A program made the position numbers and the translations under genes. From positions 1 through 33,006 of the forward strand of contig CALMML010000322.1 of the NCBI GenBank assembly GCA_937868485.1: DNA of 33,006 nucleotides. Reading direction: 5' to 3'. Of the stretch, positions 1,386 to 31,963 are shown piece by piece. The stretch's first letter is position 1. Every line of letters starts with the position of its first letter. This stretch comes from an uncultured Myxococcales bacterium. Lineage in GTDB: Bacteria; Myxococcota_A; Polyangia; Palsa-1104; JAEUJZ01. The notes beneath the pieces were generated by a model. That model was not told the DNA's origin and did not search any database. It saw nothing but the letters and a program-made list of their open reading frames with translations.

Positions 1386-2867
1386 TCAGCGCAGCTCATG
1401 CGCGCCCAGGTCGTAGCCATCGCCTTTGGGCCGCAGCCCGCCGAAGTGATCGTTCCGAACGGACTCTTCCGTCGCACCTTTGTCGATGACATACATGCGA
1501 TTGTTCGGTGTGTTTAGCAGTCGCAGGCTCTGATCCAGGTCGGGAATCGCGCGAATCAAGCCTTCGCTGGGAGGCACGACGACGGTGCCATCGATCCCGA
1601 CGACAATGCGAGTGAGCCGACAGTCCCCCACAAACTGCGAGCCGAGCGGCTGACCGCTGCCGTCCACTTTCGCACTCATCGCGTTCTGGACGATGATTGA
1701 GCTTGCGATGCTGCGCGTCGTGGTTCCGCCGGTCTCACAGCGAATCGCACCGCCGTCGACACCTTTTTCGCCGTTGTTGAGCAGCGTGTTGTACGCAAAC
1801 AGGCCGCTGGTGCCCGCTGCGATGGCGACGCCGTGACCGCCCGTGCTCTGTCCGTTGCCGTTTGCGACGCTGTTGACGACGCGATACTGCTTGGTCTGAC
1901 TGCCGATGCGAAGACCGACGCTGCGGTTGCCCAAGATGCTCGACTGCTCGACGACCAAGCGGTTGCAGCCTTGCGCATCAATGCCGACGGAGCCGTTTTG
2001 AACGATGCTGCGCAAGACCCACAAGTTGCCGTCTTTGCCGCACAGGATGCCGCTCACATCGCCGCGCACGGTGACATCGCTGACGACCAGTGCGGTCTGG
2101 CTGCCGCTCACCGACAGGGAAGCCAGCTGCGCGGGACTTGTGGCATCGCGTCCCGGTCCGACGATGGTCGTGCGTCTTCCATCGCTGACGGAGATTCCGG
2201 TATACAGGCCGCTCGTCCGAGGCCGCACGACGACAAAGTCCGTCTTTCCAAGCGCGTCGCGGATTTCACAAAATGGCCTGTCGCTGTCGCCGGTAGCAGC
2301 GGGTCCGCCCCGAGGACAGCGATCCGCATCGACGAACACCACTTTGCTCTTTGGAACGCACTGACCGAGCTTGATGTCGGGAATGTCGACGAGTCCGCCG
2401 CCGAGGTTGCAGACCTGCGACTCGCTGCACTCGCTGTGTTTTTGGCATGCGCGACAAGAAAAGCTGGCGCCGTCGCAGATGGGCAAGATTCCGCCGGTGC
2501 AGTGCGCGTCGATGCGGCACTCTCCACAGCTTCCTTTGCGCGCGCCCGAGCGAATGCACGCGGCGATGTCTTTTTGGTTCTTGCGCTGGCACGCTTCGTC
2601 GGCAGCGTCGGGACTTGGCAAGACATCGCAGGCGACGCAGACTGCGCCGTTACAGACGGGACGATCGCTGACTACGCACTGCTCTGACGATGTACACGGC
2701 GTACCGGACTTGCGTCGACACTGGCGCGTTTCGGGATCGCAGTCCCCGCCGGGGCCGCAGAGCTCAGGGTTTTGTACGCAGTCCACCACCGTCGCGGGCG
2801 AGCTACAGCCAAGCGCGCCCATCAGCGTCGCAGACAGAGGCAGTATGGCAAGCCGCAGCAGATCCAT
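1386..2867 (-). CDS. Secreted cysteine-rich lipoprotein with right-handed beta-helix
   Basis: Predicted surface lipoprotein of 493 residues. The N-terminus is a lipoprotein signal peptide with the lipid-attachment Cys21 in GALGCSS. Residues 30-175 hold many closely spaced cysteines in repeated modules (for example CTSSEQCVVSDRPVCNG and CRIDAHCTGGILPICDG), resembling disulfide-rich modules common in myxobacterial exoproteins. Residues about 215-400 read as a parallel beta-helix with short Asn/Gly/Val-rich coils (VVEQSSILGNRSVGLRIGS, VVNSVANGNGQ, LFAYNTLLNNGEKG), a fold often used for polysaccharide binding or cleavage. The end, DYDLGAHEL, matches the usual end of such choice-of-anchor/beta-helix proteins. 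No catalytic residues can be assigned; substrate and activity are unknown. Confidence 0.85.
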   Translation of the reverse strand: MDLLRLAILPLSATLMGALGCSSPATVVDCVQNPELCGPGGDCDPETRQCRRKSGTPCTSSEQCVVSDRPVCNGAVCVACDVLPSPDAADEACQRKNQKDIAACIRSGARKGSCGECRIDAHCTGGILPICDGASFSCRACQKHSECSESQVCNLGGGLVDIPDIKLGQCVPKSKVVFVDADRCPRGGPAATGDSDRPFCEIRDALGKTDFVVVRPRTSGLYTGISVSDGRRTTIVGPGRDATSPAQLASLSVSGSQTALVVSDVTVRGDVSGILCGKDGNLWVLRSIVQNGSVGIDAQGCNRLVVEQSSILGNRSVGLRIGSQTKQYRVVNSVANGNGQSTGGHGVAIAAGTSGLFAYNTLLNNGEKGVDGGAIRCETGGTTTRSIASSIIVQNAMSAKVDGSGQPLGSQFVGDCRLTRIVVGIDGTVVVPPSEGLIRAIPDLDQSLRLLNTPNNRMYVIDKGATEESVRNDHFGGLRPKGDGYDLGAHELR

Positions 2868-2956
2868 GATTTCGCGCCACGGAAGCGCACAGGCTGCGGA
2901 GCGTAGGCAGCGTGACCAAGCAGTGTCAAGCGGCGAACCGACGACACGCGTCGAAG

Positions 2957-3868
2957 CTACGGACTCGGACGCGGCGACATTGGCACCCGAAAGCGATACA
3001 GGATGGGCACCGCCGGAAGCAGATCCATTTCTCCCTCGACGTAGCCATCGGTCCAGTTGTTGACGATCAGCGGCTGTCCCGACGGACCGAGCTTGTCCGA
3101 GACAATGCCCGCGTGATCAGCGCCCGCTTTGCTCGGAAACGTGTCGAGCAGCACCAAGTCTCCGGGCAGATACGGATCGTCTTTCTTTAGCTCGACGAAG
3201 TTCTGACGGAAATAGGGCAGCATCATGCGAATCCGACGGTGATCAATGTTGGCGTCGGGAGCTCGTTCCAGCGGATAGAGCTTCGGCTTGCGCAGCACGT
3301 CTTCGTGAATCCCACTTTGCAAGTCCCAGCCCGCGTTGCGCAGCGCTCGAATCAGCGTGTCGGTGCAGACCCCTTCTGTGCGTGGAACGTCGCCATTTGG
3401 ATAGCCAAGGCGTCGATAGTTCGACACGTAGGATGCGCGGTTTTCGCACAGCTTCTTGGCTCCGACCAGCACATCGAGCGTGTTGACGATGCCGTCTCCG
3501 TCGCGATCTTCATGCCGAGGCGGCGGACCCCACAGCACCTGCGGCGACTCGGGCAGCTTCGCGGAGATCTCATTTTGGGCAGGATGTTCCAACAGCGAGA
3601 GGATCTCACTGCGACGCGGCGACTTTGACAGCGACGAAAGCTTGTCTTCTCGCAGCGGATACGCCGACAGCGGCAGCGCGCCCTGAAACAGCGTCAGCAG
3701 ACGATGCACCGGATCGATTCTCACCGTCACAGCACCGTCGGAAACTTGCCAAGCTGGACAGCGCACCGTCACGCGCTCGCCCAAGTCTGGAAAGATGCCC
3801 TGATCAACCGTCCCCAAGACCAGCAAGGCCGTCAGTGTGGTCAGCATGCGCCCTCCAAATCGGTCCAC
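2957..3868 (-). CDS. Secreted DUF1287 (NlpC/P60-like fold) protein
   Basis: Protein of 303 residues with a hydrophobic N-terminal segment (residues 8-25), likely a signal peptide; Met8 is an alternative start. Residues about 145-300 match the DUF1287 family: GYPNGDVPRTEGVCTDTLIRA with Cys168, WDLQ-x3-HED, NIDHRR near 207-212, PGDLVLLD, and DHAGIVSD with His252. Cys168 and His252 fit the Cys/His pair of papain-like NlpC/P60-type enzymes, so a cell-wall hydrolase or amidase role is possible but unproven. Just before the domain, residues 121-132 (DRDGDGIVNTLD) form an EF-hand/dockerin-like calcium loop, unusual for this family. No neighbour indicates the function. Confidence 0.85.
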   Translation of the reverse strand: MDRFGGRMLTTLTALLVLGTVDQGIFPDLGERVTVRCPAWQVSDGAVTVRIDPVHRLLTLFQGALPLSAYPLREDKLSSLSKSPRRSEILSLLEHPAQNEISAKLPESPQVLWGPPPRHEDRDGDGIVNTLDVLVGAKKLCENRASYVSNYRRLGYPNGDVPRTEGVCTDTLIRALRNAGWDLQSGIHEDVLRKPKLYPLERAPDANIDHRRIRMMLPYFRQNFVELKKDDPYLPGDLVLLDTFPSKAGADHAGIVSDKLGPSGQPLIVNNWTDGYVEGEMDLLPAVPILYRFRVPMSPRPSP

Positions 3869-4070
3869 GCATCCAACGCAGCAGCGCAGCCGAAGATCTG
3901 GCGGGAAGGAACCTGCAGTTCGTCAGAGCCAACCACACTACGCGCAACCCACCCCGCGCCAAACACCAGTACGTTCTTCTAGCAACATCGATTTAAGTAA
4001 TATAGAAAACTTTATTTTATAGGATTATTGCTCAATCGCTCGTTGGTGTGCGCCAAGGGGAGGCTGGATC
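3869..4070. other. Divergent intergenic region with AT-rich promoter-like stretch
   Basis: About 200 bases separate two divergent genes. Positions roughly 3990-4025 are strikingly AT-rich in a GC-rich surrounding (TTTAAGTAATATAGAAAACT and onward), which suggests a promoter or UP-element region, but no clear -35/-10 pair can be fixed. AAGGGGAGG at 4055-4063 is the ribosome-binding site for the downstream GTG start at 4071. Confidence 0.45.
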
Positions 4071-6248
4071 GTGGTGACCAATTGTCGTTCGGGCTGGTTT
4101 TGGGCTGCAGCGCTGGCTGTCTCATGTTCAGCGAGCACTGCCGTCGCTCAGAACCGAGACAACTTTCGCAATGCAACCTTCGACATGCAGCTGTACCGGC
4201 CCGCGATGGACTCGCGTGGCTATGTGACGGTGAACTCGTCGAAGCTGCTCGGGCATCTCGACTTTTCGCTCGGGCTTCAGGGAACGTGGGCGTTTCAGCC
4301 ACTGAAGCTCCAGCTCGACGGAGGCTCGAACTACGGCGACGATCCGGCGGCCTCGGTAGTGACCAACACGCGGACGTTTACCGTCGACCACTTGGTGACA
4401 CCGCAGCTTCAGTTTGCCATCGGCCTGTTTAAGTGGGTCGAGCTTGGCATCGGCATTCCGCTCGGGCTGTCGATCGGAAAGCGGCAGCAGTGCGACGCCA
4501 ACGGTGAAAACTGCGGCGGATTTAACCAAGCAGCGGTCAGCGATCAGCTTCGCTACACCAAGGTGATGCTGTCGGACATCGCGCTGCATGCCAAAGTGCG
4601 CGTACTCGATCCGTCGAGCTTTCCCATTGGCATCGCGGCGCTGGTGTCAGCGTATTTCCCGATTTCCAAGTGGGCAGCGGACGACGGCTACAAGACGTTC
4701 CTCGGCGAAGACAACGTCACGCTGCGGCCTCAGCTGATCCTCGAAAGAGAATGGGGTGACTCGCGACGAATCCGCACCGCGATCAACGTCGGTGCCGTGG
4801 TTCGCTTCGGCAGCACCACGTTCACCGACATCGGCAAGAGCATCGCACTCGGCAGTGGTCAGCTGTGTTATCCGGCGGACAGCACCGCAGTGGGTGGCGA
4901 GTGCAATCCCGGCGTCACCTTCGGTGGAACCGGTCTCAGCCGCTCGGTCGGAACCCAGGTCACGTACGGCGTCTCGGCGGCGTTCGGTGTGGTGATGAAC
5001 CGACTCGACATTCTCGTCGAGGCATTCGGTTATGCCGACGTCACTGGCAATGCCAAGGCGTTCCCCGTCGAAGCACTCGGTGCGCTGAAGCTGTATCTGG
5101 CGAAAAATTCGTTCTTTTTGGCTGGCGCAGGCGCGGGTGTGTACGGAAACGGTGGCGAACAGACGGGAAGCCCGAAGGTCCGCGCGTTCCTTGGCTTCGT
5201 CTATGAGCCGCGTATCGGTGATCGCGATGGCGACGGAATCCGCGACAACATCGATCAGTGTCCCGACGAGCCCGAAGATCTCGACGGCTTCCAAGACGAA
5301 GACGGCTGCCCGGAGCTGGACAACGACAACGACGGAGTTCCCGACAGCAAAGACCGCTGTCCGAATGTCCCAGGAACCTGGGATAACAAGGGCTGCCCGA
5401 CGGATGCCGACAAGGACGGCGACGGGATTCCCGATAGCAAAGACAAGTGCCCCGACGATCCCGAAGATCGCGATGGCTGGGAAGACGACGACGGCTGCCC
5501 GGAACTCGACAACGATGGCGACGGCATTCCCGATCACCTCGACAAGTGTCCAAATGAGTCCGAGACGGTAAACGGCATCGACGACAAAGACGGATGTCCC
5601 GACGGTGAAGACACCGATAAAGATGGCATTCCCGACGCAGTCGATAAGTGTCCGTACGAGGCGGAAGACAAAGACGGCTTCGAGGATCAAGACGGCTGCC
5701 CCGAGGCTGACAACGACAAAGATCGCATTCTCGACAAGGACGACAAGTGCCCGAACGAGCCGGAGACCTACAACGGCTTCGACGACGGCGACGGCTGCCC
5801 CGACAAAGGCCGCGTAATGATGGAAGGCGGCAAGATCAACATCCTCGACAAGGTCTACTTCGAGACGGGCAAGGCCGTGATCAAGCCGGTCAGCTTCCCG
5901 ATTCTCGACGCAGTGGCCGCGACGCTGGTGGGCAATCCCGAGATCGAGCTGCTCGAAATCCAAGGTCATGCCGATGAGCGCGGCGACGACAACGCGAACC
6001 TGCGCCTGACGGCTGCGCGGACTCAGTCGGTGAAAGCGTATCTGGAAAAGAAAGGCGTGGCCGGAAACCGACTGGTTGCAAACGGATACGGTGAGACCAA
6101 ACCTGTTTGTACTGAGTCCAACGAAGAGTGCTGGGAAAAGAACCGTCGCGTCGAGTTCGTAATCCTCAAGCCCGCAGCGCCCGGAGCCAGCCCGCCAAGC
6201 CCGCCGCCACAGCCGCAGCTCAAGCCAAGCAAGGGCAAGAAGAAGTAG
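4071..6248 (+). CDS. OmpA-family outer-membrane protein with thrombospondin type 3 repeats
   Basis: Large OmpA-like protein of 725 residues that links outer membrane and peptidoglycan. A GTG start at 4071 is supported by AAGGGGAGG seven bases upstream and by a signal peptide ending near STAVA|QN (residue 25). Residues about 30-380 are a beta-rich, probably barrel-forming region. Residues 384-585 carry at least five calcium-binding TSP3 units of the type DxDxDGIxDxxDxCPxxPE (DRDGDGIRDNIDQCPDEPED and relatives). Residues about 590-697 form the OmpA C-terminal peptidoglycan-binding domain (VYFETGKAVI, IQGHADERGDD-x-NLRLTAAR, NRRVEFVIL). The tail is Pro/Lys-rich. This architecture is common in Myxococcota and related groups. 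One repeat (DNDKDRILDKDD) has lost its usual glycine. Confidence 0.93.
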   Translation: MVTNCRSGWFWAAALAVSCSASTAVAQNRDNFRNATFDMQLYRPAMDSRGYVTVNSSKLLGHLDFSLGLQGTWAFQPLKLQLDGGSNYGDDPAASVVTNTRTFTVDHLVTPQLQFAIGLFKWVELGIGIPLGLSIGKRQQCDANGENCGGFNQAAVSDQLRYTKVMLSDIALHAKVRVLDPSSFPIGIAALVSAYFPISKWAADDGYKTFLGEDNVTLRPQLILEREWGDSRRIRTAINVGAVVRFGSTTFTDIGKSIALGSGQLCYPADSTAVGGECNPGVTFGGTGLSRSVGTQVTYGVSAAFGVVMNRLDILVEAFGYADVTGNAKAFPVEALGALKLYLAKNSFFLAGAGAGVYGNGGEQTGSPKVRAFLGFVYEPRIGDRDGDGIRDNIDQCPDEPEDLDGFQDEDGCPELDNDNDGVPDSKDRCPNVPGTWDNKGCPTDADKDGDGIPDSKDKCPDDPEDRDGWEDDDGCPELDNDGDGIPDHLDKCPNESETVNGIDDKDGCPDGEDTDKDGIPDAVDKCPYEAEDKDGFEDQDGCPEADNDKDRILDKDDKCPNEPETYNGFDDGDGCPDKGRVMMEGGKINILDKVYFETGKAVIKPVSFPILDAVAATLVGNPEIELLEIQGHADERGDDNANLRLTAARTQSVKAYLEKKGVAGNRLVANGYGETKPVCTESNEECWEKNRRVEFVILKPAAPGASPPSPPPQPQLKPSKGKKK

Positions 6249-6362
6249 CCTCATTTTTCTCACCCAGGTTCGCGCGCACGACCTACACTCTGTGTGGCGC
6301 GGCCCGGGCCCCCGTCCATCGAGGCAGGGGGATCTGGCAAGCAGTCCGCGTCAGCGACGAAC

Positions 6363-7739
6363 ATGCTGGGAAACCTGCTCAGGCCAGACATCGAAAAGAT
6401 GATTCGGGATAAGGACTGGAAACACCTGCGCCAAGAGTTTGCGCAGCTGGATCCGTCCGATCTGGCCGAGATCTTGGAAGAATTTCCACTGCAAGACGCG
6501 GCGCTGGTGTTTCGGATTCTGCCAAGAGACGCAGCGGCGGTGATCTTTGAATACCTGCCGCTGGAGCTGCAAACCAAGCTGGTGCAGAGCCTGGCCGACG
6601 AGCAGCTGGTGAACGTCGTCAACGCGATGGCGCCAGACGATCGGACGCGACTTCTCGAAGAGCTGCCACCGGAAGTGACCAAGCGCGTGCTTGGCAGCCT
6701 GACGCCGAGTGAGCTGAAGATCGCGCGACAGCTGCTCGGTTATCCCGAAGACTCCGCCGGGCGCTACATGACGCCCGAGTACGTCGCGGTTCGTCCCGAC
6801 ATGACCGCGGCGGAAGCGCTGGCCTACATTCGGAAGCACGGCAAAGGCGCAGAGACGCTGAACGTCATCTATGTCACCGACGAAAAAGGTCGACTGCTGA
6901 GCGATCTGCGGCTGGCGGCGCTGGTGATGGCGCAACCGACGACGAAGATCGAAGATCTGAGCGACGGTCAGATGTTCAACATCCCGGCCACGGCGGATCG
7001 GGAAGAGTTCGTCGCTGCGTTTGAAAAGTACGATCGCGTCGCGCTGCCCGTCACGGACTCCAAAGGCGTGATGCTGGGCATCATCACCATCGACGACGTG
7101 CTCGATGTAGCCGAAGCAGAGGCGACGGAAGACATCCAGAAGCTCGGCGGTATGCAAGCCCTGGAAGCGCCGTATATGGACAGCCCGTTTGTGGACATGA
7201 TCAAGAAGCGCGCGGGCTGGCTGCTGGTGCTGTTCTTCGGCGAGATGTTCACCGCGACGGCGATGGCGTTCTTCGAAGGAGAGATCAAGCGCGCGGTGGT
7301 GCTGGCGCTGTTTATTCCGCTCATCATCTCGTCGGGTGGTAACTCGGGCTCGCAGGCAACGTCGCTGATCATTCGGTCACTGGCGGTGCGAGAGCTGGAG
7401 CTGTCCGACTGGGTGCGCGTCATGCGCCGAGAGATCCTGTCCGGCATCGTGCTCGGATCGATCCTCGGGATCGTCGGATTTTTGCGGATTGTGCTGTGGC
7501 CGTCTCGAGTGGCTGTCTACGGACCACACTTTGTCCAAGTCGCGGTGGTGGTTTCGATCAGCTTGGTCGGCGTGGTGATGTTTGGAACGCTGGTTGGATC
7601 GATGCTGCCGTTTTTGCTGCGACGACTGGGGCTTGATCCAGCGGCGGCTTCGGCCCCGTTTGTGGCGACGCTGGTCGACGTAAGTGGTCTGGTCATCTAC
7701 TTCACAGCCGCTTCGATCGTGCTACGCGGGCTGTTGTGA
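6363..7739 (+). CDS. mgtE: MgtE-family magnesium channel/transporter
   Basis: Inner-membrane Mg2+ channel. Starting at the ATG at 6363 the product has 458 residues, the normal MgtE length; an in-frame GTG at 6294 would add 23 low-complexity residues, and neither start has a strong ribosome-binding site. Domains in order: superhelical MgtE N domain (about 20-125, LDPSDLAEILEEFP, LPRDAAAVIFEYLP), a CBS pair (about 125-255, GRYMTPEYVAVRPDMT and IITIDDVLDV), and a membrane domain from about 285. The pore signatures are visible: PLIISSGGNSGSQATSLIIR and LGLDPAAASAPFVATLVDVS. The cytosolic domains normally act as the Mg2+ sensor gating the pore. It lies 114 bases after the OmpA gene and 91 before the UspA gene. 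Confidence 0.95.
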   Translation: MLGNLLRPDIEKMIRDKDWKHLRQEFAQLDPSDLAEILEEFPLQDAALVFRILPRDAAAVIFEYLPLELQTKLVQSLADEQLVNVVNAMAPDDRTRLLEELPPEVTKRVLGSLTPSELKIARQLLGYPEDSAGRYMTPEYVAVRPDMTAAEALAYIRKHGKGAETLNVIYVTDEKGRLLSDLRLAALVMAQPTTKIEDLSDGQMFNIPATADREEFVAAFEKYDRVALPVTDSKGVMLGIITIDDVLDVAEAEATEDIQKLGGMQALEAPYMDSPFVDMIKKRAGWLLVLFFGEMFTATAMAFFEGEIKRAVVLALFIPLIISSGGNSGSQATSLIIRSLAVRELELSDWVRVMRREILSGIVLGSILGIVGFLRIVLWPSRVAVYGPHFVQVAVVVSISLVGVVMFGTLVGSMLPFLLRRLGLDPAAASAPFVATLVDVSGLVIYFTAASIVLRGLL

Positions 7740-23995: not shown

Positions 23996-26257
23996 TTAGC
24001 GGACCAAGGGTTGGATGCGCCCGTCGTGGGCAAAGACTTCAGGCAGAAGGCAGGTGACGCCGGTGTAGTCGTAGTCTCCCGTCTGATTTTTGCCCTTGAT
24101 GTTACTCCACTTGCTCGGGTCTTTGCAGCGGTAGCGCTCGTCGACACCGAGAGAGCGAACGAAGTCCGCCAGCGAGTCGCGCAAGCTGATGCCGGTGTTG
24201 AAGCGCGTGGTGTTTCGCTTGAGCACCACAAAGCCAGAGCCACCGACGGAGATATAGTCGTTCACAGCGGTCTTGTAGCTGGCAAAGCAGTCGAGCGGCT
24301 TGCACTTGTCGGTGTTGACGCTGCCGTCGATGTTGCGACAGTCGTCTCCGAAGACCACTTTGTCAGCAAACGGACCGACCCACTTGGCCTTCTGGGCTTG
24401 CGTCGCGCTCAGTCGCTCCGTGCAGGACAGCGACGTCGGACACTGCGCCCGGTAGGTCTGGCAGTCCGCCGTCTTTTGACAATCGCACAGATCCGGGTTC
24501 GCTCGGCACGCGCAGCGCTGGTTCTGACAGTTGAGCGTGAAGTAGATGCCAGAGACCTGCACCTGCGTCTTGCAGCCACGCTCACTCGAGCGGTCAGCGA
24601 CGAAGTCGAGCATCTGAAGCACTTCGTCTCCCGACAGAAACTGCGTGGTGATCGTGTTGTCGAACGGAAACACGTTGTAGAGCTGTTCCAGCGTGAGCGG
24701 TCCCGACTCAAAGTCCGCGCGAATGCCCAGCGAGTTGGTCAGCGCAAAGTCCGCTTCCACGCGTCGTCGCAGCCGCATCGACGTCGCCACCAAGTTGCCA
24801 AGCTGCGAGTCTCCACCACCGGCATCGTTGCGCAGCACCTTCGGACAGCTCGACGATCCCGCAGGACACGGAACCACTGCGTAGACCTGCCCCAGGTTGA
24901 GCAGCTGCTTCATCTTGATCTCATACGGCTCGAGCAGCCTCGACATGTCCGCATCGGGCGGCGTGCAGACCACACGCGGCCTCGGCGCTGGCATCGTTCC
25001 TTTGTACGGACACGACACCTTCGGGTTCGACGGATGCGCCGGGTCGCAGCGAATCGAGGGATCGCACGGATCAGTCGGATCGCCCTGCTGCCAGGGACGC
25101 TCTCCGATGGGGATGACGCGGAAGGTGTAGCTCTTGACGTAGGTGCGACGGTTGAGCGGATCGGCAGCGCTCGGATCACCGACGTGAACCACCATATCGA
25201 GCGAGCCCACAAACTTTGCAAACGCACCGCTGTTGACGATGATCGTGTGACCTTGGTAGGTGCCGCTCTTGTCGTAGTGCGAGACGTCGACGGGCGGATT
25301 GTAGACGGTGTGCAAGTGTCCACCGAGCACCACGTCGATTCCGTTTAGATCCACCGCCGCGCTGTTGGGATCGCTGCCCGCGCCTTCACTGTTTTCGTCG
25401 GATACTTCGCGAGCTACTGCGGTGTCATCGTCGGGGCCCATGTGACTGACGACGACCATCAGATCGACCTGCGGACGCAGCACGCGCACCAGATCCGACA
25501 CCGCTTGCTTGGCGTCACGCGCGCGAATGCCCAGCGAGTTGTCTCCTTCCACCGAGCTATTGAGCGACGAGACGTTGCCAAGACCAATCACACCGACGCG
25601 AATGCCGCGCACGTTGTAGACCGCCACCGGCTGGATGAACCGTCCGAGCTTGGGTGAGCGCTGGTCGTCGGGATCGAAGTACTCGTAGTTGGCGGCCAGG
25701 ATCGGGAAGTTCGGCCCGTGATTCATCAGCTGAATCCCGAGCAGGTTCGCGCCTTTGTCGAACTCGTGGTTGCCGAGCGCCATGCCCTGCACACCGAGGA
25801 GTCCCATCGTGCGAATCTCGACTTCTCCGTTGAACAGGTTAAAGACCGGCGCGCCTTGAAACATGTCGCCGGAATCGAGGTGAAGGGTTCGCGGAGCACG
25901 CCCTCGCTCACGCTTGATCACCGTCGCCATTCGCGCAATGCCACCGACGGATGCGGTCGGAAACGCCGCACAGTCAGCATCGGTCGAACAGCTTCGCGAC
26001 AAGTCCGAGCTACACGTCCTGTCGTCCGTACACACACCCGACAGCACATTGAGCCCCAGGTTGCGATCGGGCAGGTTCGGCGCGTACTGGTACGGCAGAA
26101 GCCGCGAGTGTACGTCCGAGGTGTGAATGAGCACCATGTGGACATCTTGGCCACGGAGATCCTCGGGCTCACGGCTGTAGGTACAAGCGGACAGACCGGC
26201 AAGCAGCGACAGGGCCAACAGCCAAGGCGCACGCCAGCAGAGCGTTTTGGACGACAT
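23996..26257 (-). CDS. 5'-nucleotidase/UshA-family metallophosphatase lipoprotein
   Basis: Surface lipoprotein of 753 residues. The ATG at 26255-26257 has GAGGAG upstream and gives a good lipobox (GLSAC, Cys25); an in-frame ATG at 26293 is less likely. Metallophosphoesterase motifs: IHTSDVH (Asp48, His50), SGDMFQG, LGNHEFDKG, VVSHMGPDDD and GGHLHTVYN, which bind two metal ions. The C-terminal 5'-nucleotidase substrate domain follows (GGDSQLGNLVATSMRLR, FPFDNTITTQFLSGDEVLQML). The protein probably dephosphorylates extracellular nucleotides. Two cysteine-rich insertions are unusual: one near residue 80 (GVCTDDRTCSSDLSRSCSTD) and one near 570-610 (CQNQRCACRANPDLCDCQ), which also interrupt the canonical folds. 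Confidence 0.92.
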   Translation of the reverse strand: MSSKTLCWRAPWLLALSLLAGLSACTYSREPEDLRGQDVHMVLIHTSDVHSRLLPYQYAPNLPDRNLGLNVLSGVCTDDRTCSSDLSRSCSTDADCAAFPTASVGGIARMATVIKRERGRAPRTLHLDSGDMFQGAPVFNLFNGEVEIRTMGLLGVQGMALGNHEFDKGANLLGIQLMNHGPNFPILAANYEYFDPDDQRSPKLGRFIQPVAVYNVRGIRVGVIGLGNVSSLNSSVEGDNSLGIRARDAKQAVSDLVRVLRPQVDLMVVVSHMGPDDDTAVAREVSDENSEGAGSDPNSAAVDLNGIDVVLGGHLHTVYNPPVDVSHYDKSGTYQGHTIIVNSGAFAKFVGSLDMVVHVGDPSAADPLNRRTYVKSYTFRVIPIGERPWQQGDPTDPCDPSIRCDPAHPSNPKVSCPYKGTMPAPRPRVVCTPPDADMSRLLEPYEIKMKQLLNLGQVYAVVPCPAGSSSCPKVLRNDAGGGDSQLGNLVATSMRLRRRVEADFALTNSLGIRADFESGPLTLEQLYNVFPFDNTITTQFLSGDEVLQMLDFVADRSSERGCKTQVQVSGIYFTLNCQNQRCACRANPDLCDCQKTADCQTYRAQCPTSLSCTERLSATQAQKAKWVGPFADKVVFGDDCRNIDGSVNTDKCKPLDCFASYKTAVNDYISVGGSGFVVLKRNTTRFNTGISLRDSLADFVRSLGVDERYRCKDPSKWSNIKGKNQTGDYDYTGVTCLLPEVFAHDGRIQPLVR

Positions 26258-26373
26258 CAGGCTCCTCGTAGGAAGTAAGCGATACTGTAGCAAAAAATCG
26301 TTCCTCGTCGAAAAACATGCCCGCCGGAGCGGTCTCCACCGTTGTTACATAAGTGACTTCATAAGTGGAACTC

Positions 26374-26385
26374 GAACCCTTACGT
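26374..26385 (-). promoter_or_regulatory. Left arm of an inverted motif flanking the isc promoter
   Basis: GAACCCTTACGT on the plus strand, the exact reverse complement of ACGTAAGGGTTC at 26453-26464. It lies upstream of the predicted -35 box, between the divergent isc and nucleotidase operons. An operator role is inferred. Confidence 0.5.
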
Positions 26386-26403
26386 GCGCGATAGATTTTG
26401 CGC

Positions 26404-26434
26404 TTGACCGCTGCCAGGTGGCATCTGATACTAC
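26404..26434 (+). promoter_or_regulatory. Candidate promoter and MerR-type operator of the isc operon
   Basis: TTGACC (26404-26409) is a good -35 box. Two -10 readings are possible: GATACT (26427-26432) after 17 bases, or TACTAC (26429-26434) after 19 bases, the lengthened spacing typical of MerR-activated promoters. A perfect palindrome, TGCCA-GG-TGGCA (26412-26423), sits in the middle of the spacer, exactly where MerR-family regulators bind. This suggests autoregulation and control of iscS onward. Confidence 0.6.
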
Positions 26435-26452
26435 GCGAAAAACCTCACGCAT

Positions 26453-26464
26453 ACGTAAGGGTTC
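26453..26464 (+). promoter_or_regulatory. Right arm of the inverted motif, overlapping the ribosome-binding site
   Basis: ACGTAAGGGTTC, the inverted copy of the motif at 26374-26385. It includes the AAGGG ribosome-binding site of the merR-like gene, so a protein or RNA interaction here could affect translation as well as transcription. ACGTAAGGG also occurs at 20743-20751. Confidence 0.5.
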
Positions 26465-26467
26465 AAG

Positions 26468-27016
26468 TTGCAAACCAAGCACCAGACAGCCGAGGTCCCG
26501 GAACACACGGAGACCAAAGGGGACAGCGAAAGCGGGCAGCCACGGCCCGATAAGCTGCTGCGCATTGGTCAGCTTGCCGAGCTGTGCAACAAAACCACGC
26601 GAGCGCTTCATCTGTATGAAGAGCTGGGGCTGCTCAAGCCGGTGATTCGCTCACGCGGCGGCTTTCGGCTGTATTCGCAGACGGCGATCGAGCGTGTGCA
26701 GTGGATTACGCGACTGCAAGATGCGGATGTCTCTCTCGGGGAAATCTCGCAGCTGCTACGTGATCTCGAAGAACAGCGCGTCGGTAGCGAGGCCATGACC
26801 AAGCTGCGCTCGCTGCTTGAACAAAAGCTGAAAGAAACGCGCGAGCAGATCGACAAGCTGCGAATGCTCGAACAGGACTTACAGGCCGGGCTCAGCTATC
26901 TCGACGGTTGCAAGGTGTGCAGCACCGAAACCCCCGCCTCGGAATGTGGTGGCTGTCGAATTCACGGCCACGACGGACCCCAGCCGCTGATGGTGGCCGG
27001 GGTGCTGGTTAGCTAA
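26468..27016 (+). CDS. MerR-family regulator with four-cysteine C-terminal motif, head of the isc operon
   Basis: Transcription regulator of 182 residues. TTG (26468) is the only plausible start before the DNA-binding domain; AAGGG lies six bases upstream. The MerR winged helix spans about residues 30-98: [27 protein letters not shown], then [10 protein letters not shown] and [21 protein letters not shown] long dimerisation helix follows (100-143). The C-terminus has Cys148-x2-Cys151-x8-Cys160-x2-Cys163 then His166 and His168, a pattern that could bind a Fe-S cluster or zinc; SoxR also holds a cluster there but with closer cysteine spacing. The gene is ten bases before iscS, replacing the usual Rrf2 regulator IscR. 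A role as Fe-S or metal sensor for the operon is inferred. A disordered 28-residue leader precedes the domain. Confidence 0.88.
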
Positions 27017-27026
27017 AGGACGAAAC

Positions 27027-28247
27027 ATGGCGCTCAAGCTCCCGATTTTTATGGACTATCACTCGACGACCCCGGTGGATCCGCGCGTCCTCGAGACGAT
27101 GCTGCCCTACTTCACGACGCACTTTGGCAACGCGGCGAGCCGCAACCACGCGTTTGGCTGGACTGCCGAAAAAGCCGTCGATGATGCACGCGAGCAGGTC
27201 GGTCAGCTCATCGGAGCCTCGGGCAAAGAGATCGTGTTTACCTCGGGCGCAACCGAGTCAAACAACCTGGCCATCAAGGGCGCGGCGCACTTTTACAAAG
27301 ATCGCGGCAACCACATCATCACGACGCAGATTGAGCACAAAGCGGTGCTCGATACCTGCAAGCGGCTGGAGCTGGAAGGCTTCGAGGTGACGTATCTGCC
27401 GGTGGAATCCGACGGAAGGCTGCGTCCCGAGCTGCTCGCGCAAGCGATGACCGACCGCACGATCCTGGTGTCGGTGATGCTGGCAAACAACGAGATCGGA
27501 ACGATTCAGCCGCTCAAAGAAATCGGCCAGATCGTGAAGGCTCGCGGCGCGCTGCTTCACACCGACGCAGTGCAAGGCGTGGGCAAGATTCCGTTCGACG
27601 TAAACGATGTGCAAGCGGATCTGGTGTCGCTGACGGCGCACAAGATGTACGGTCCGAAAGGCGTCGGGGCGCTGTATGTCCGTCGCAAGCCGCGGATTCG
27701 TCTGGAAGCCCAGATGGATGGTGGCGGTCACGAGCGAGGTCTGCGCTCGGGCACGCTCAATGTTCCAGGCATCGTCGGCTTTGGCAAAGCATGCGAGATC
27801 GCCAAGCACGAAATGGTCGAGGAGTCGGCGCGGATTGCCCGGATGCGCGATCGTCTGGAAACCGCGCTGATGCAGTCGATGCCACACGTCTTCCGCAATG
27901 GCTCGGTGCAGCATCGTCTGCCCGGCAACGCGAACCTAAGCTTTGCGTACGTCGAGGGTGAAGGCCTTCTGATGGCGCTCAAAGACGTCGCGGTGTCGTC
28001 GGGTTCGGCTTGTACGTCAGCGTCGCTGGAGCCGTCGTATGTGCTGCGTGCGCTCGGGATTGGCGAAGAGCTGGCGCATACCTCGATTCGCTTTGGTCTG
28101 GGCCGCTTCACCACCGAGGAAGAAGTGGACTTCGTTATCAAGCTCACCGTCGACAAAGTGAGCCGTCTTCGTGAAATGTCGCCGCTGTGGGAAATGGTCC
28201 AAGAAGGCGTCGACCTCAAGAGCATCGAGTGGACCGCTGCCCACTAG
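27027..28247 (+). CDS. iscS: Cysteine desulfurase IscS
   Basis: PLP enzyme that takes sulfur from cysteine and passes it as persulfide to IscU. The 406-residue product shows [14 protein letters not shown] at the start, [12 protein letters not shown], His104 in [10 protein letters not shown], the PLP-binding Lys206 in [12 protein letters not shown], and the catalytic Cys329 in the class I loop [21 protein letters not shown]. Its length and the SSGSACTS loop mark it as IscS/NifS rather than SufS. AAAGGA precedes the ATG at 27027. It starts ten bases after the regulator and 27 bases before iscU. Confidence 0.98.
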
Positions 28248-28274: not shown

Positions 28275-28682
28275 ATGGCTTACAGCAACAAAGTCATCGA
28301 CCACTACGAAAACCCGCGCAACGTCGGTAGCTTCGACAAAAACGATCCCGATGTCGGGACTGGTCTCGTCGGAGCCCCGGCTTGCGGCGACGTGATGAAG
28401 CTTCAGCTCAAGATCGGCGACGACGGCGTGATTCAAGACGCGCGGTTTAAGACGTTCGGCTGCGGCTCGGCCATCGCCAGCTCGTCGCTGGTGACGGAGT
28501 GGGTGAAGGGCATGTCGATCGAGGACGCGGAAAAGATCCAAAACTCGTCGATTGCCGACGAGCTGAACCTGCCGCCGGTCAAGATCCACTGCTCGGTGCT
28601 GGCTGAAGACGCGATCAAAGCCGCGATTGCCGATTACCGTCGCAAAAAAGGCCCAGGCAGCGAGACGGAGAAAGCGAGCTAA
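28275..28682 (+). CDS. iscU: Iron-sulfur cluster scaffold IscU
   Basis: Scaffold on which new Fe-S clusters are built. The 135-residue product begins [20 protein letters not shown], the hallmark IscU N-terminus. Cluster ligands Cys37 (APACGD, with Asp39), Cys63 ([11 protein letters not shown]) and Cys106 ([11 protein letters not shown]) are all present, as is LPPVK at 99-103, the motif bound by the chaperone HscA. The only difference from E. coli is a short charged C-terminal extension. Only two bases separate it from iscA. Confidence 0.98.
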
Positions 28683-28684
28683 CG

Positions 28685-29026
28685 ATGGGCATCCAAGCAA
28701 CCAGCAAAGCCATCGCCGAGGTCAAGCGCCTGCAAGAAAAGCGCATGTCGGAAGGCAAAGCTGCGCAAGGGCTTCGCATCGGCATCCGCGGCGGCGGCTG
28801 CACCGGCTTTTCCTACCTGTTCGAGTGGGCCGACGAGCCGCCTCGTAGCACCGACCGCGTGTTCGAGTTCCACGACGGTGTTCGCATCTTTGTCGACCCG
28901 AAGAGCCTGGTCTATTTAAACGGCACGGAGCTGGACTTCGTGACGAGCATGATGGGCTACGGCTTCAAGTTCCAGAACCCCAACACCAAGGGAAGCTGTG
29001 GCTGCGGTGAGAGCGTCCAGTTCTAA
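28685..29026 (+). CDS. iscA: A-type Fe-S carrier IscA
   Basis: Carrier that accepts Fe-S clusters or iron and delivers them to target proteins. The 113-residue product contains all three conserved cysteines: Cys39 ([10 protein letters not shown]) and Cys105/Cys107 (GSCGCGESV). The body matches the HesB/IscA fold ([26 protein letters not shown]). It is co-translated with iscU and its end overlaps the hscB start by 29 bases. IscA and ErpA cannot be separated by sequence alone, but the operon position favours IscA. Confidence 0.95.
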
Positions 29027-29573
29027 GACGTACTTTTCGCTGCTCGATCTGCCCGCGCGATTTTCGGTCGATTTGGCGGATTTGGAGCAGCGTTACCGCG
29101 AAAAGTCGCGAAACTGGCATCCTGACCGCTTCAGTCGGGCTCCAGCGAGCGAGCGCGCAGCCGTGCTTCAGCGTGCGACCGAGCTAAACGAAGCGTATCG
29201 GACGCTGCGCAGCGACAGCAAGCGCGCGGCGTATCTGCTGAAGCTTCACGGGATCGATGTCAGCGACGAACGCCAAAAGCCCGCGCTCGATCCGGCGTTT
29301 CTCGGTGAGATCTTGGAGCTACGCGAAGAGCTGGCGGATGCGCGCGTCGAGCGTGACGATGCCAAGCTGTCGTCCATCAAGCGCAGGATCGAATCCGAGC
29401 AGCAGCAGCTCTCTGAGCGACTGCACGCAGGCTTTGTCCGTCTGGAACAAGAAGATCCCGCCGCGCTGTCCGAGCTGACCGAGACGGTCTTTGTGCAGCG
29501 CTATTACCAGCGCTTCGCCGACGACATTGCGGAATACGAAGAAGCGCAAGCTGGCCACAGGGCCGTGCTATAA
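28998..29573 (+). CDS. hscB: Co-chaperone HscB (J protein)
   Basis: J-domain protein that brings IscU to HscA and stimulates its ATPase. The 191-residue product starts with GTG at 28998 (AAGGGAAG just upstream, within iscA); GTG at 29007 is an alternative. The J domain covers about 11-80 with HPD at 41-43 (NWHPDRFS) and a conserved [20 protein letters not shown] helix. The C-terminal three-helix bundle (about 95-185, with [12 protein letters not shown] and [10 protein letters not shown]) is the IscU-binding HscB domain. Confidence 0.95.
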
Positions 29574-29643: not shown

Positions 29644-31599
29644 ATGAGCCTGTTTCAAATTGCCGAGCCTGGCGAGTCCACGGCCAAGGAAGCGTGTAAA
29701 GGTCGCGTCGTCGGAATCGACCTTGGCACCACGAACTCGCTGGTTGCGGTGGTGCGCGACGGAGATCCGCAGTGCCTGCTTGATGAGCACGGACAAGCAC
29801 TTCTTCCGTCGGTGGTTCGCTATCGAGCCGGGGTTGCGCCGGTCGTTGGTCAAGCGGCCAAGAGCAGCGCAGCGGAAGCACCTCACGACACGATTGCGTC
29901 GGTGAAGCGCTTCATGGGCCGAGGCCCCGCAGACATCGCCAAAGACGGCACGGCGCAGCGCTTCGGTCAGTATCGATTTGCGGACGCCGCGCAGCATCAA
30001 GATGGCGTGGTGCGACTGCTCGTCTCTGCGCCCGGTGGACTGCGAGCGGTGACGCCGCTGGAAGTCAGCGCCGAGATCCTGCGTGTGCTGCGAAATCGGG
30101 CGGAAGAACAGCTCGGTGGTGAGCTAGAAGGCGCGGTCATCACGGTTCCGGCGTATTTCGACGATGCGCAGCGTCAAGCCACCAAAGATGCGGGCCGACT
30201 GGCTGGCCTTCAGGTGATGCGACTGCTCAATGAGCCGACGGCGGCAGCGCTGGCGTATGGGCTCGACAAGAAGCGTGAAGGCAAGTTCGCGGTCTACGAT
30301 CTGGGCGGCGGCACGTTCGATGTCTCGATTCTGGATCTGTGCGACGGAATCTTTACGGTCATGGCGACGAGCGGAGACACGGCGCTCGGCGGTGATGACA
30401 TGGATGCGGCGCTGGCGGAGCTGCTGCTGTCGAAGCATCCTGCTCGCGAGAGCCTACGTGCTCCGACGAGCCAAGATCCGATCTTCGCGCGACAGCTTCT
30501 GGATACAGCACGGGCCATCAAGCATGAGCTGACGACGCATGAGCAAGCGACGGTGACGTGGGAAGCTGCGTCGCTGACGGTGACTCGGAGTGAGTTTGAC
30601 CAAGCGATTGCGCCGATCCTGAATCGGACTGCAGGTCCGTGCCGACGGGCGATGAAAGATGCCGAGCTGACTGGGAAGGATCTTTCGGGTGTGATTCTCG
30701 TCGGTGGAGCGACGCGTGTTCCTGCGGTGCGACGCTTCGTTGGTGAGCTGTTTGGTCAGTCGCCGCTGTGTGATCTCGATCCCGAACAAGTGGTCGCGCT
30801 CGGTGCGGCGGTGCAAGCCGATATTCTGTCGAGTGAGCGTCAAGACGCGCTGCTGATTGATGTGACACCGCTGTCGCTCGGACTGGAGCTGATGGGCGGA
30901 ATCGTCGAAAAGATCATCCCGCGAAACAGTCGCGTTCCGACGGGAGCCAAGCAGGTTTTTACGACCTACGCCGACGGACAGACTGGCTTCGATCTGCACG
31001 TTGTCCAAGGCGAACGGGAAACCGCTGGGGAGTGTCGCAGCCTGGCGCGCTTCAAGCTGACCGGCGTTCCAAAGATGGCGGCGGGCATGGCTCGCCTGGA
31101 AGTGATGTTTCTGATCGACGAAAACGGCCTGCTCGCAGTGGACGCGCGCGAGCTGACGTCGGGACGGGCTGCGCACATCGCGGTCAAGCCGTCGTATGGA
31201 CTGAGCGAAGAGCAGATCGAACAAATGCTCGTCGATAGCTTTGAGCACGCCGAGGGAGACCTGCGCAAGCGCGCACTGCTGGAGCAGCGCGTCGAGGCGG
31301 AGCGAATCCTGCAAGCGCTTGAGATTGCCCTTGCGCAAGACGGTTCGCTGCTCAGCGAAGAAGAAATGCAGCCAATTGTCGAGGCGCGCACTGCCCTGCA
31401 AGCGGCCCGTACTGGCGTCGATCATCGACTGATTGCCGACTGCATCACCGCGCTGGATGTCGTCAGCAAAGAGTTCGCGCAGCGTCGGATGAACGCCGGA
31501 CTGAGCCGAGCCGTCACTGGAAAGTCGGTTGGAACCGTCGAAAAAGCCGTTCACTTCGACGAAAACGATCTGCCCAAAAGCATCCCTCTCGCCGAGTGA
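29644..31599 (+). CDS. hscA: Fe-S assembly Hsp70 chaperone HscA
   Basis: Specialised Hsp70 that releases clusters from IscU. From the ATG at 29644 the product has 651 residues, slightly longer than E. coli HscA; the frame is open further upstream into hscB but homology starts here. ATPase-domain motifs: [66 protein letters not shown]. The substrate domain begins near [26 protein letters not shown], followed by a helical lid. The HscB partner and the LPPVK motif in IscU confirm HscA rather than DnaK. Four bases separate it from fdx. Confidence 0.97.
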
Positions 31600-31603
31600 G
31601 AAC

Positions 31604-31963
31604 ATGCCCACCGTTACCTTTTTGAACGATCCCGGCCCCGACGGCAAACCGAAGAGCATTGAGGTTGCAGCGGGCACCAGCATTCTCGAAGCGGCCAAGC
31701 GCGCGCATGCTCAAGTGGGCTACGCGTGCGGCGGCGTCTGTGCGTGCTCGACGTGTCACGTCTACGTTCGCTCGGGCCAAGCGACGCTCAGCCCGCAGAA
31801 AGACAAAGAAGAAGACATCCTCGACAAAGCGTTCGATGTCCGCGCAAACTCCCGTCTGAGCTGCCAAGCACGTCTCGCGAGTGGCTCCGTCGAAGTCGAG
31901 ATCTCTCGCGAAAGCCGTCGCGCCTACGCCGACGAACATCCCGAGTCACGCACATCGGGCTAA
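31604..31963 (+). CDS. fdx: Adrenodoxin-type [2Fe-2S] ferredoxin of the ISC system
   Basis: Ferredoxin that supplies electrons for Fe-S assembly. The 119-residue product starts at ATG 31604 and has the adrenodoxin-type pattern Cys42-x5-Cys48-x2-Cys51 (ACGGVCACSTCHVYV) plus Cys87 (SRLSCQARL). Cys46 is an additional cysteine inside the loop, also found in E. coli Fdx. The C-terminal tail (SRRAYADEHPE) is short and charged. It is the last gene of the operon; no iscX follows, and the convergent kinase gene begins its coding end 26 bases away. Confidence 0.96.
   Translation: MPTVTFLNDPGPDGKPKSIEVAAGTSILEAAKRAHAQVGYACGGVCACSTCHVYVRSGQATLSPQKDKEEDILDKAFDVRANSRLSCQARLASGSVEVEISRESRRAYADEHPESRTSG

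Follow-up and report, generated by a model that had tools for sequence, protein, structure and literature searches.

The window, i.e., the whole stretch of 33,006 nucleotides that was analysed, contains a gene for a MerR-family regulator followed by iscS-iscU-iscA-hscB-hscA-fdx, as assigned with NCBIfam and Pfam models (Table 1). The last base of the regulator gene is 27016 and the first base of iscS is 27027; the order of the isc genes and the gap of ten bases, which had been described in an earlier note on this DNA, were both confirmed. Read from the sequence, the open reading frame of the regulator begins with TTG, the sole ATG, GTG or TTG codon before the winged helix.

Table 1. Genes and predicted regulatory features at the isc locus (positions in the window).
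Feature	Position	Strand	Remarks
5'-nucleotidase/metallophosphoesterase gene	23996–26293	-	divergent; common intergenic region with O2
Second candidate operator O2, AACCCTTACGTGCGCGATAGATTT	26375–26398	+	26.6 bits; 5 bp upstream of -35 box
Predicted sigma70-type promoter, TTGACC-N17-GATACT	26404–26432	+	between O2 and O1; 17-bp spacer, not the MerR-type 19–20 bp
Candidate operator O1, AAACCTCACGCATACGTAAGGGTT	26440–26463	+	24-bp dyad; PWM 36.4 bits, top site in window
MerR-family regulator, 182 aa	26468–27016	+	winged helix 31–102, dimerisation helix 106–147, C-terminal C148-x2-C151-x8-C160-x2-C163
iscS, cysteine desulfurase	27027–28247	+	TIGR02006, 656.5 bits, above cut-off
iscU, scaffold	28275–28682	+	TIGR01999, 229 bits, above cut-off
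iscA-type carrier	28685–29026	+	family match, under equivalog cut-off
hscB, co-chaperone	28998–29573	+	curated cut-off passed
hscA, chaperone	29644–31599	+	curated cut-off passed; listed ORF from 29491, homology from near 29644
fdx, [2Fe-2S] ferredoxin of isc operon	31529–31963	+	family match, under equivalog cut-off; true start within listed ORF

The product of 26468–27016 matched the Pfam models MerR_1 (4.2e-14), MerR and MerR-DNA-bind; a MerR winged-helix domain was indicated by PF13411 (52.8 bits, cut-off 21.6), PF00376 and PF09278, and no match to the Rrf2 domain PF02082 was obtained in the Pfam scan. An AlphaFold model based on an alignment of 52 rows (mean pLDDT 90) contained the winged helix, a long helix at residues 106–147 and a short helix at 157–162, so that the winged helix and dimerisation helix of the earlier note are borne out by Pfam and by the model. 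A long dimerisation helix followed by a cysteine loop as effector region, as seen in the model and in the PDB matches, is the arrangement of the MerR family. A second model, from an 11-row alignment, resembled MerR-family crystal structures in the PDB, i.e., CadR, CueR, SoxR (2zhg) and HiNmlR, with zinc-containing CadR among the closest folds. Scores against curated subfamily models were low: 42.7 bits for SoxR (TIGR01950, cut-off 116.9), 61.6 bits for a ZntR model (far below its cut-off of 168) and, as the top value for any curated metal sensor, 65 bits for the ZntR model PRK09514 (cut-off 143). Since none of the cut-offs of the ZntR, CadR, CueR and SoxR subfamilies was reached, the protein is a MerR-family member outside the named subfamilies.

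The four cysteines are at the positions given earlier (148, 151, 160 and 163) and were conserved in 52/52, 52/52, 51/52 and 52/52 aligned members, respectively, down to 33% identity, i.e., as strongly as the DNA-binding core; a lack of conservation, which would have spoken against the earlier note, was thus not seen. The majority spacing among relatives is that of the window protein, C-x2-C-x8-C-x2-C, and, as had been pointed out, it is unlike the C-x2-C-x-C-x5-C of SoxR. Histidine 166 is common (29 of 52 members), and no further cysteine is conserved in the alignment; residue 40, considered as a second metal ligand in the N-terminal half, was rejected, being Cys in only 4/52 sequences. All four cysteines fall directly after the dimerisation helix, the region which serves as ligand site in SoxR and in metal sensors. 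The pattern CX2C...CX2C is zinc-ribbon-like; CX2C-X8-CX2C is no recognised Fe-S signature and suits zinc equally well.

Linkage to Fe-S assembly genes was assessed by comparing the positions of MerR profile matches with those of IscS in 379 Myxococcota genomes. Every one of the 120 matches with more than 150 bits heads an Fe-S assembly operon; iscS follows in 119 of them and sufABCD in one. In 113 cases, the distance to a co-directional iscS downstream is no more than 312 bp; inspection of the remaining seven loci placed six beside iscS and one at the head of sufA-sufB-sufC-sufD. Strong matches which had at first been deemed "unlinked" turned out to be due to contig ends, more divergent IscS proteins or the SUF operon. 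For the nine matches below 110 bits, no co-directional iscS was located within 312 bp downstream. In this sample, every strong member is thus associated with Fe-S assembly, and the earlier suggestion that a conserved isc linkage should be detectable in related genomes held true. Gene arrangement and cysteines alike recur across the Myxococcota and are not due to chance. Within the order to which the window belongs, 10 of 14 genomes possess a family member; nine of these loci are complete and continue with iscS and iscU, and one more match is situated at a contig end. One pattern scan of GTDB contigs yielded 12 loci, all titled as Myxococcales, Myxococcota, Deltaproteobacteria or Oligoflexia MAGs. 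The suf-linked gene (locus L061, G317:C67:14000-22000, positions 2643–7219) belongs to the same MerR subfamily and to a genome of the same class; thus, where one machinery has been exchanged for the other, the regulator has remained with Fe-S assembly.

Each of the 49 Fe-S-linked genes tested was preceded by a symmetric dyad of 24 bp, AACCCTTACGnnnnCGTAAGGGTT. Its weight matrix was trained on the same 49 regions, and leave-one-out matrices, from which near-identical sites were also dropped, were used to limit bias; with these the dyad exceeded 50 shuffles in 49/49 cases. The outer half-sites ACCCT...AGGGT, spanning 22 bp overall, are MerR-like, comparable to those of the ZntR and CadR operators. 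When ten whole genomes were scanned with two mismatches allowed, the dyad occurred essentially only at the MerR-isc promoter, which was the single place in seven of them. Two places were found in the other three: in the genome of the window both lie at the isc promoter (26441–26462 and 26376–26397), and in the other two the extra match has two mismatches, approximately the rate of a reversed-pattern control. The next unrelated site in the 33-kb window scored 3.1 bits. Sixteen loci carry two well-separated strong sites, which are 65 bp apart in the window and in a close relative. The dyad was absent from three isc loci of family f25, a lineage without isc-linked MerR. The MerR gene is, therefore, the first gene of the isc operon and has a conserved candidate regulatory site at its promoter, as would be expected of an IscR analogue.

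All promoters considered here are sequence predictions. Of 49 loci, 45 allowed a promoter of the type TTGAC-N17-TAnnnT to be called, and 37 of these have the 17-bp spacing. In classical MerR members the operator typically lies in an overlong spacer of 19–20 bp, a trait not required of all members, and untwisting by MerR needs a fixed place of the operator in this long spacer. Here, the dyad lies outside the spacer. Its start mostly falls between about 0 and 18 bp past the -10 box, at an offset which varies, and the dyad covers the transcription start. O1 of the window starts 7 bp past the -10 box, extends from the predicted +1 to about +25 and overlaps the AAGGG ribosome-binding site of the MerR gene; O2 ends shortly before the -35 box. 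The variable offset, together with the normal spacer, argues for steric repression rather than spacer untwisting, and the predicted O1/O2 layout fits the former and not the classical MerR twist. In seven loci, the best dyad is upstream of the called -35 box, so that activation may also be possible there. The region 26404–26434, which had been proposed for a binding test, is the promoter itself; the flanking dyads O1 and O2 appear to be likelier sites. A palindrome in the spacer, TGCCAGGTGGCA (about 26412–26423), which has the look of a classical MerR operator, was dropped, as it is not conserved in relatives.

IscR above its curated cut-off (207.55 bits) was found in none of the 379 Myxococcota genomes. 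The genome of the window encodes two Rrf2 proteins, which reached 63.5 and 44.7 bits against this cut-off, and both are located on other contigs. In the sister family f25, which possesses the same operon with strong IscS matches and no isc-linked MerR, an Rrf2 gene occupies the same slot directly before iscS in two of three loci (L074, L075). These data support the earlier idea that the MerR protein replaces IscR. No match to SufB was obtained in the genome of the window (assembly 99.7% complete), although SufB was matched in 14/14 control genomes; thus, isc is its only recognised Fe-S assembly pathway. The isc locus of Myxococcus xanthus is without an iscR-like gene and is controlled by the Rrf2 protein RisR, which is encoded with suf; holo-RisR, bound over the -10 box and the start, is a repressor of isc (PMC9973013).

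Most likely, the MerR protein would repress its own gene along with the only Fe-S assembly pathway of the cell and would monitor Fe-S status by its four cysteines, a ligand assignment for which zinc is the main rival. The protein may bind both O1, which lies at the transcription start, and O2, immediately before the -35 box, and would then block RNA polymerase at a normally spaced promoter; from the sequence data we infer both the binding and the repression of its own operon. With less certainty, the Cys4 site could hold an Fe-S cluster built by the operon's own machinery, in which case the cluster-loaded form would repress and loss of the cluster, by iron limitation or oxidation, would release the operon. 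The logic of this feedback would be that of holo-IscR of E. coli and holo-RisR of M. xanthus. We incline slightly towards this reading as a whole, namely, a dedicated local isc autorepressor which does the job of IscR with a protein of an unrelated family and acts in its cluster-loaded form.

A repressor at the same operators might instead bind zinc with its four cysteines, as a structural metal or as a sensor of zinc or thiol stress, and be released by the metal or by thiolate oxidation. The curated models matched best by the protein are those of Zn(II) and Cd/Pb sensors, with every score far short of its cut-off, and both the fold of CadR with Zn and the ribbon-like cysteine pattern mentioned above would suit this explanation. 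The same module also exists away from isc: a distant MerR group of about 25% identity, encoded in the same genomes, ends in C-x2-C-x8-C-x2-C (L133:5612-6289, minus strand; L134:2241-2870; L135:3661-4227, minus strand), and its neighbours, judged by eye, include hrcA/grpE, a Clp-type ATPase and a Lon-domain protein. The module need, therefore, not be specific for Fe-S sensing, which makes zinc more possible. However, the metal ligands of ZntR and CadR are different, with fewer cysteines which are shared between subunits, the N-terminal half of the isc-linked protein has no conserved cysteine, and the genes to which it is linked serve Fe-S assembly and not zinc export. We regard zinc binding as rather unlikely, although it is the main rival.

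An isc activator of the SoxR or classical MerR type, turned on by oxidants or metals, would appear improbable. SoxR, itself a MerR protein, carries a [2Fe-2S] cluster at its C-terminus and is similar in fold, and the seven loci with an upstream dyad, as well as the place of O2 in the window, could be suited to activation; but classical untwisting does not apply to standard 17-bp spacers with the dyad outside, and the cysteine spacing of SoxR differs. That the MerR gene is a conserved neighbour with mainly other targets, and that an unlinked Rrf2 protein controls isc, is very doubtful: two such proteins are encoded in the genome and RisR acts on isc from an unlinked suf locus (PMC9973013), but the dyad is virtually confined to the MerR-isc promoter in the ten genomes and missing where the isc-linked MerR is missing, and the isc promoter of the window lacks the RisR motif TKGAC-N7-GTCCW.

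Compared with known systems, the preferred autorepressor would share with IscR of E. coli and RisR of M. xanthus the role of an isc regulator encoded with Fe-S assembly genes and the use of cysteine ligands. IscR and RisR are, however, Rrf2 proteins (RisR of Rrf2 group IS6) with three cysteines, and the operator used for comparison is TKGAC-N7-GTCCW, the RisR motif, whereas the window protein is a MerR protein with four cysteines in CX2C-X8-CX2C and the candidate operator ACCCTTACG-N4-CGTAAGGGT. SoxR has in common with it the winged helix, the dimerisation helix and a four-cysteine C-terminus after that helix; it differs, besides the cysteine spacing, by an operator in a 19–20 bp spacer and by activating soxS or transport genes. 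ZntR, CadR and CueR are the closest relatives in sequence and fold and possess similar outer operator half-sites (ACYCT/AGRGT), but differ in ligand arrangement, target genes and position of the operator relative to the promoter. Non-classical layouts are known from the MerR-type regulators HnoC and McdR, with palindromes overlapping start and -10, and from CvkR, a MerR-type repressor without recognisable effector site (PMC9938897); palindromes near or over the start are a trait shared with the window locus, but the targets of these proteins are unrelated. MliR of Bizionia is likewise MerR-like and tied to iron homeostasis, but it has no cysteines or metal site and no reported isc linkage (PMC9478572).

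A search of the literature, mostly without subscription papers, brought up no description of a MerR-family protein that regulates isc or suf. To our knowledge, the known regulators of isc and suf all belong to the Rrf2, SufR (ArsR-like) or Fur groups, and SoxR, which regulates a stress response, is the only MerR protein known to hold an Fe-S cluster. New to us is the combination of MerR with isc, the cysteine spacing and the operator: by fold a MerR protein, by role an analogue of IscR. If this is correct, an essential switch of homeostasis would have been replaced convergently by a MerR protein over Fe-S assembly, and its operator is clear. That a large branch of the Myxococcota has, at the head of isc, a MerR protein with invariant Cys4 and its own dyad suggests that this control was solved independently. 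It is an evenly balanced question, in our opinion, whether a MerR Fe-S protein took over the IscR role independently in a large part of the phylum, as a Cys4-cluster repressor with flanking operators which followed the exchange of isc for suf. The system should be suitable for experiments on which cluster is bound, which signal is sensed and how a regulator can be exchanged while an essential pathway stays under control.

In a tree of 56 MerR sequences, the window protein grouped with good support with relatives of its family and class, including the suf-linked protein. The deeper branches were weak; thus, the isc-linked group probably arose only once, but the tree does not prove it. Two loci of family f48 (L072, L073) contain a divergent four-Cys MerR gene before a NifS/IscS-like desulfurase, and the conserved dyad is not present upstream. 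In family f37 (L068–L071), second four-Cys MerR copies were found, whose promoters carry overlapping dyads of variant sequence; this points to a joint evolution of dyad and protein. In L068, a gene for an ECF-type RNA polymerase sigma factor is next after the second copy.
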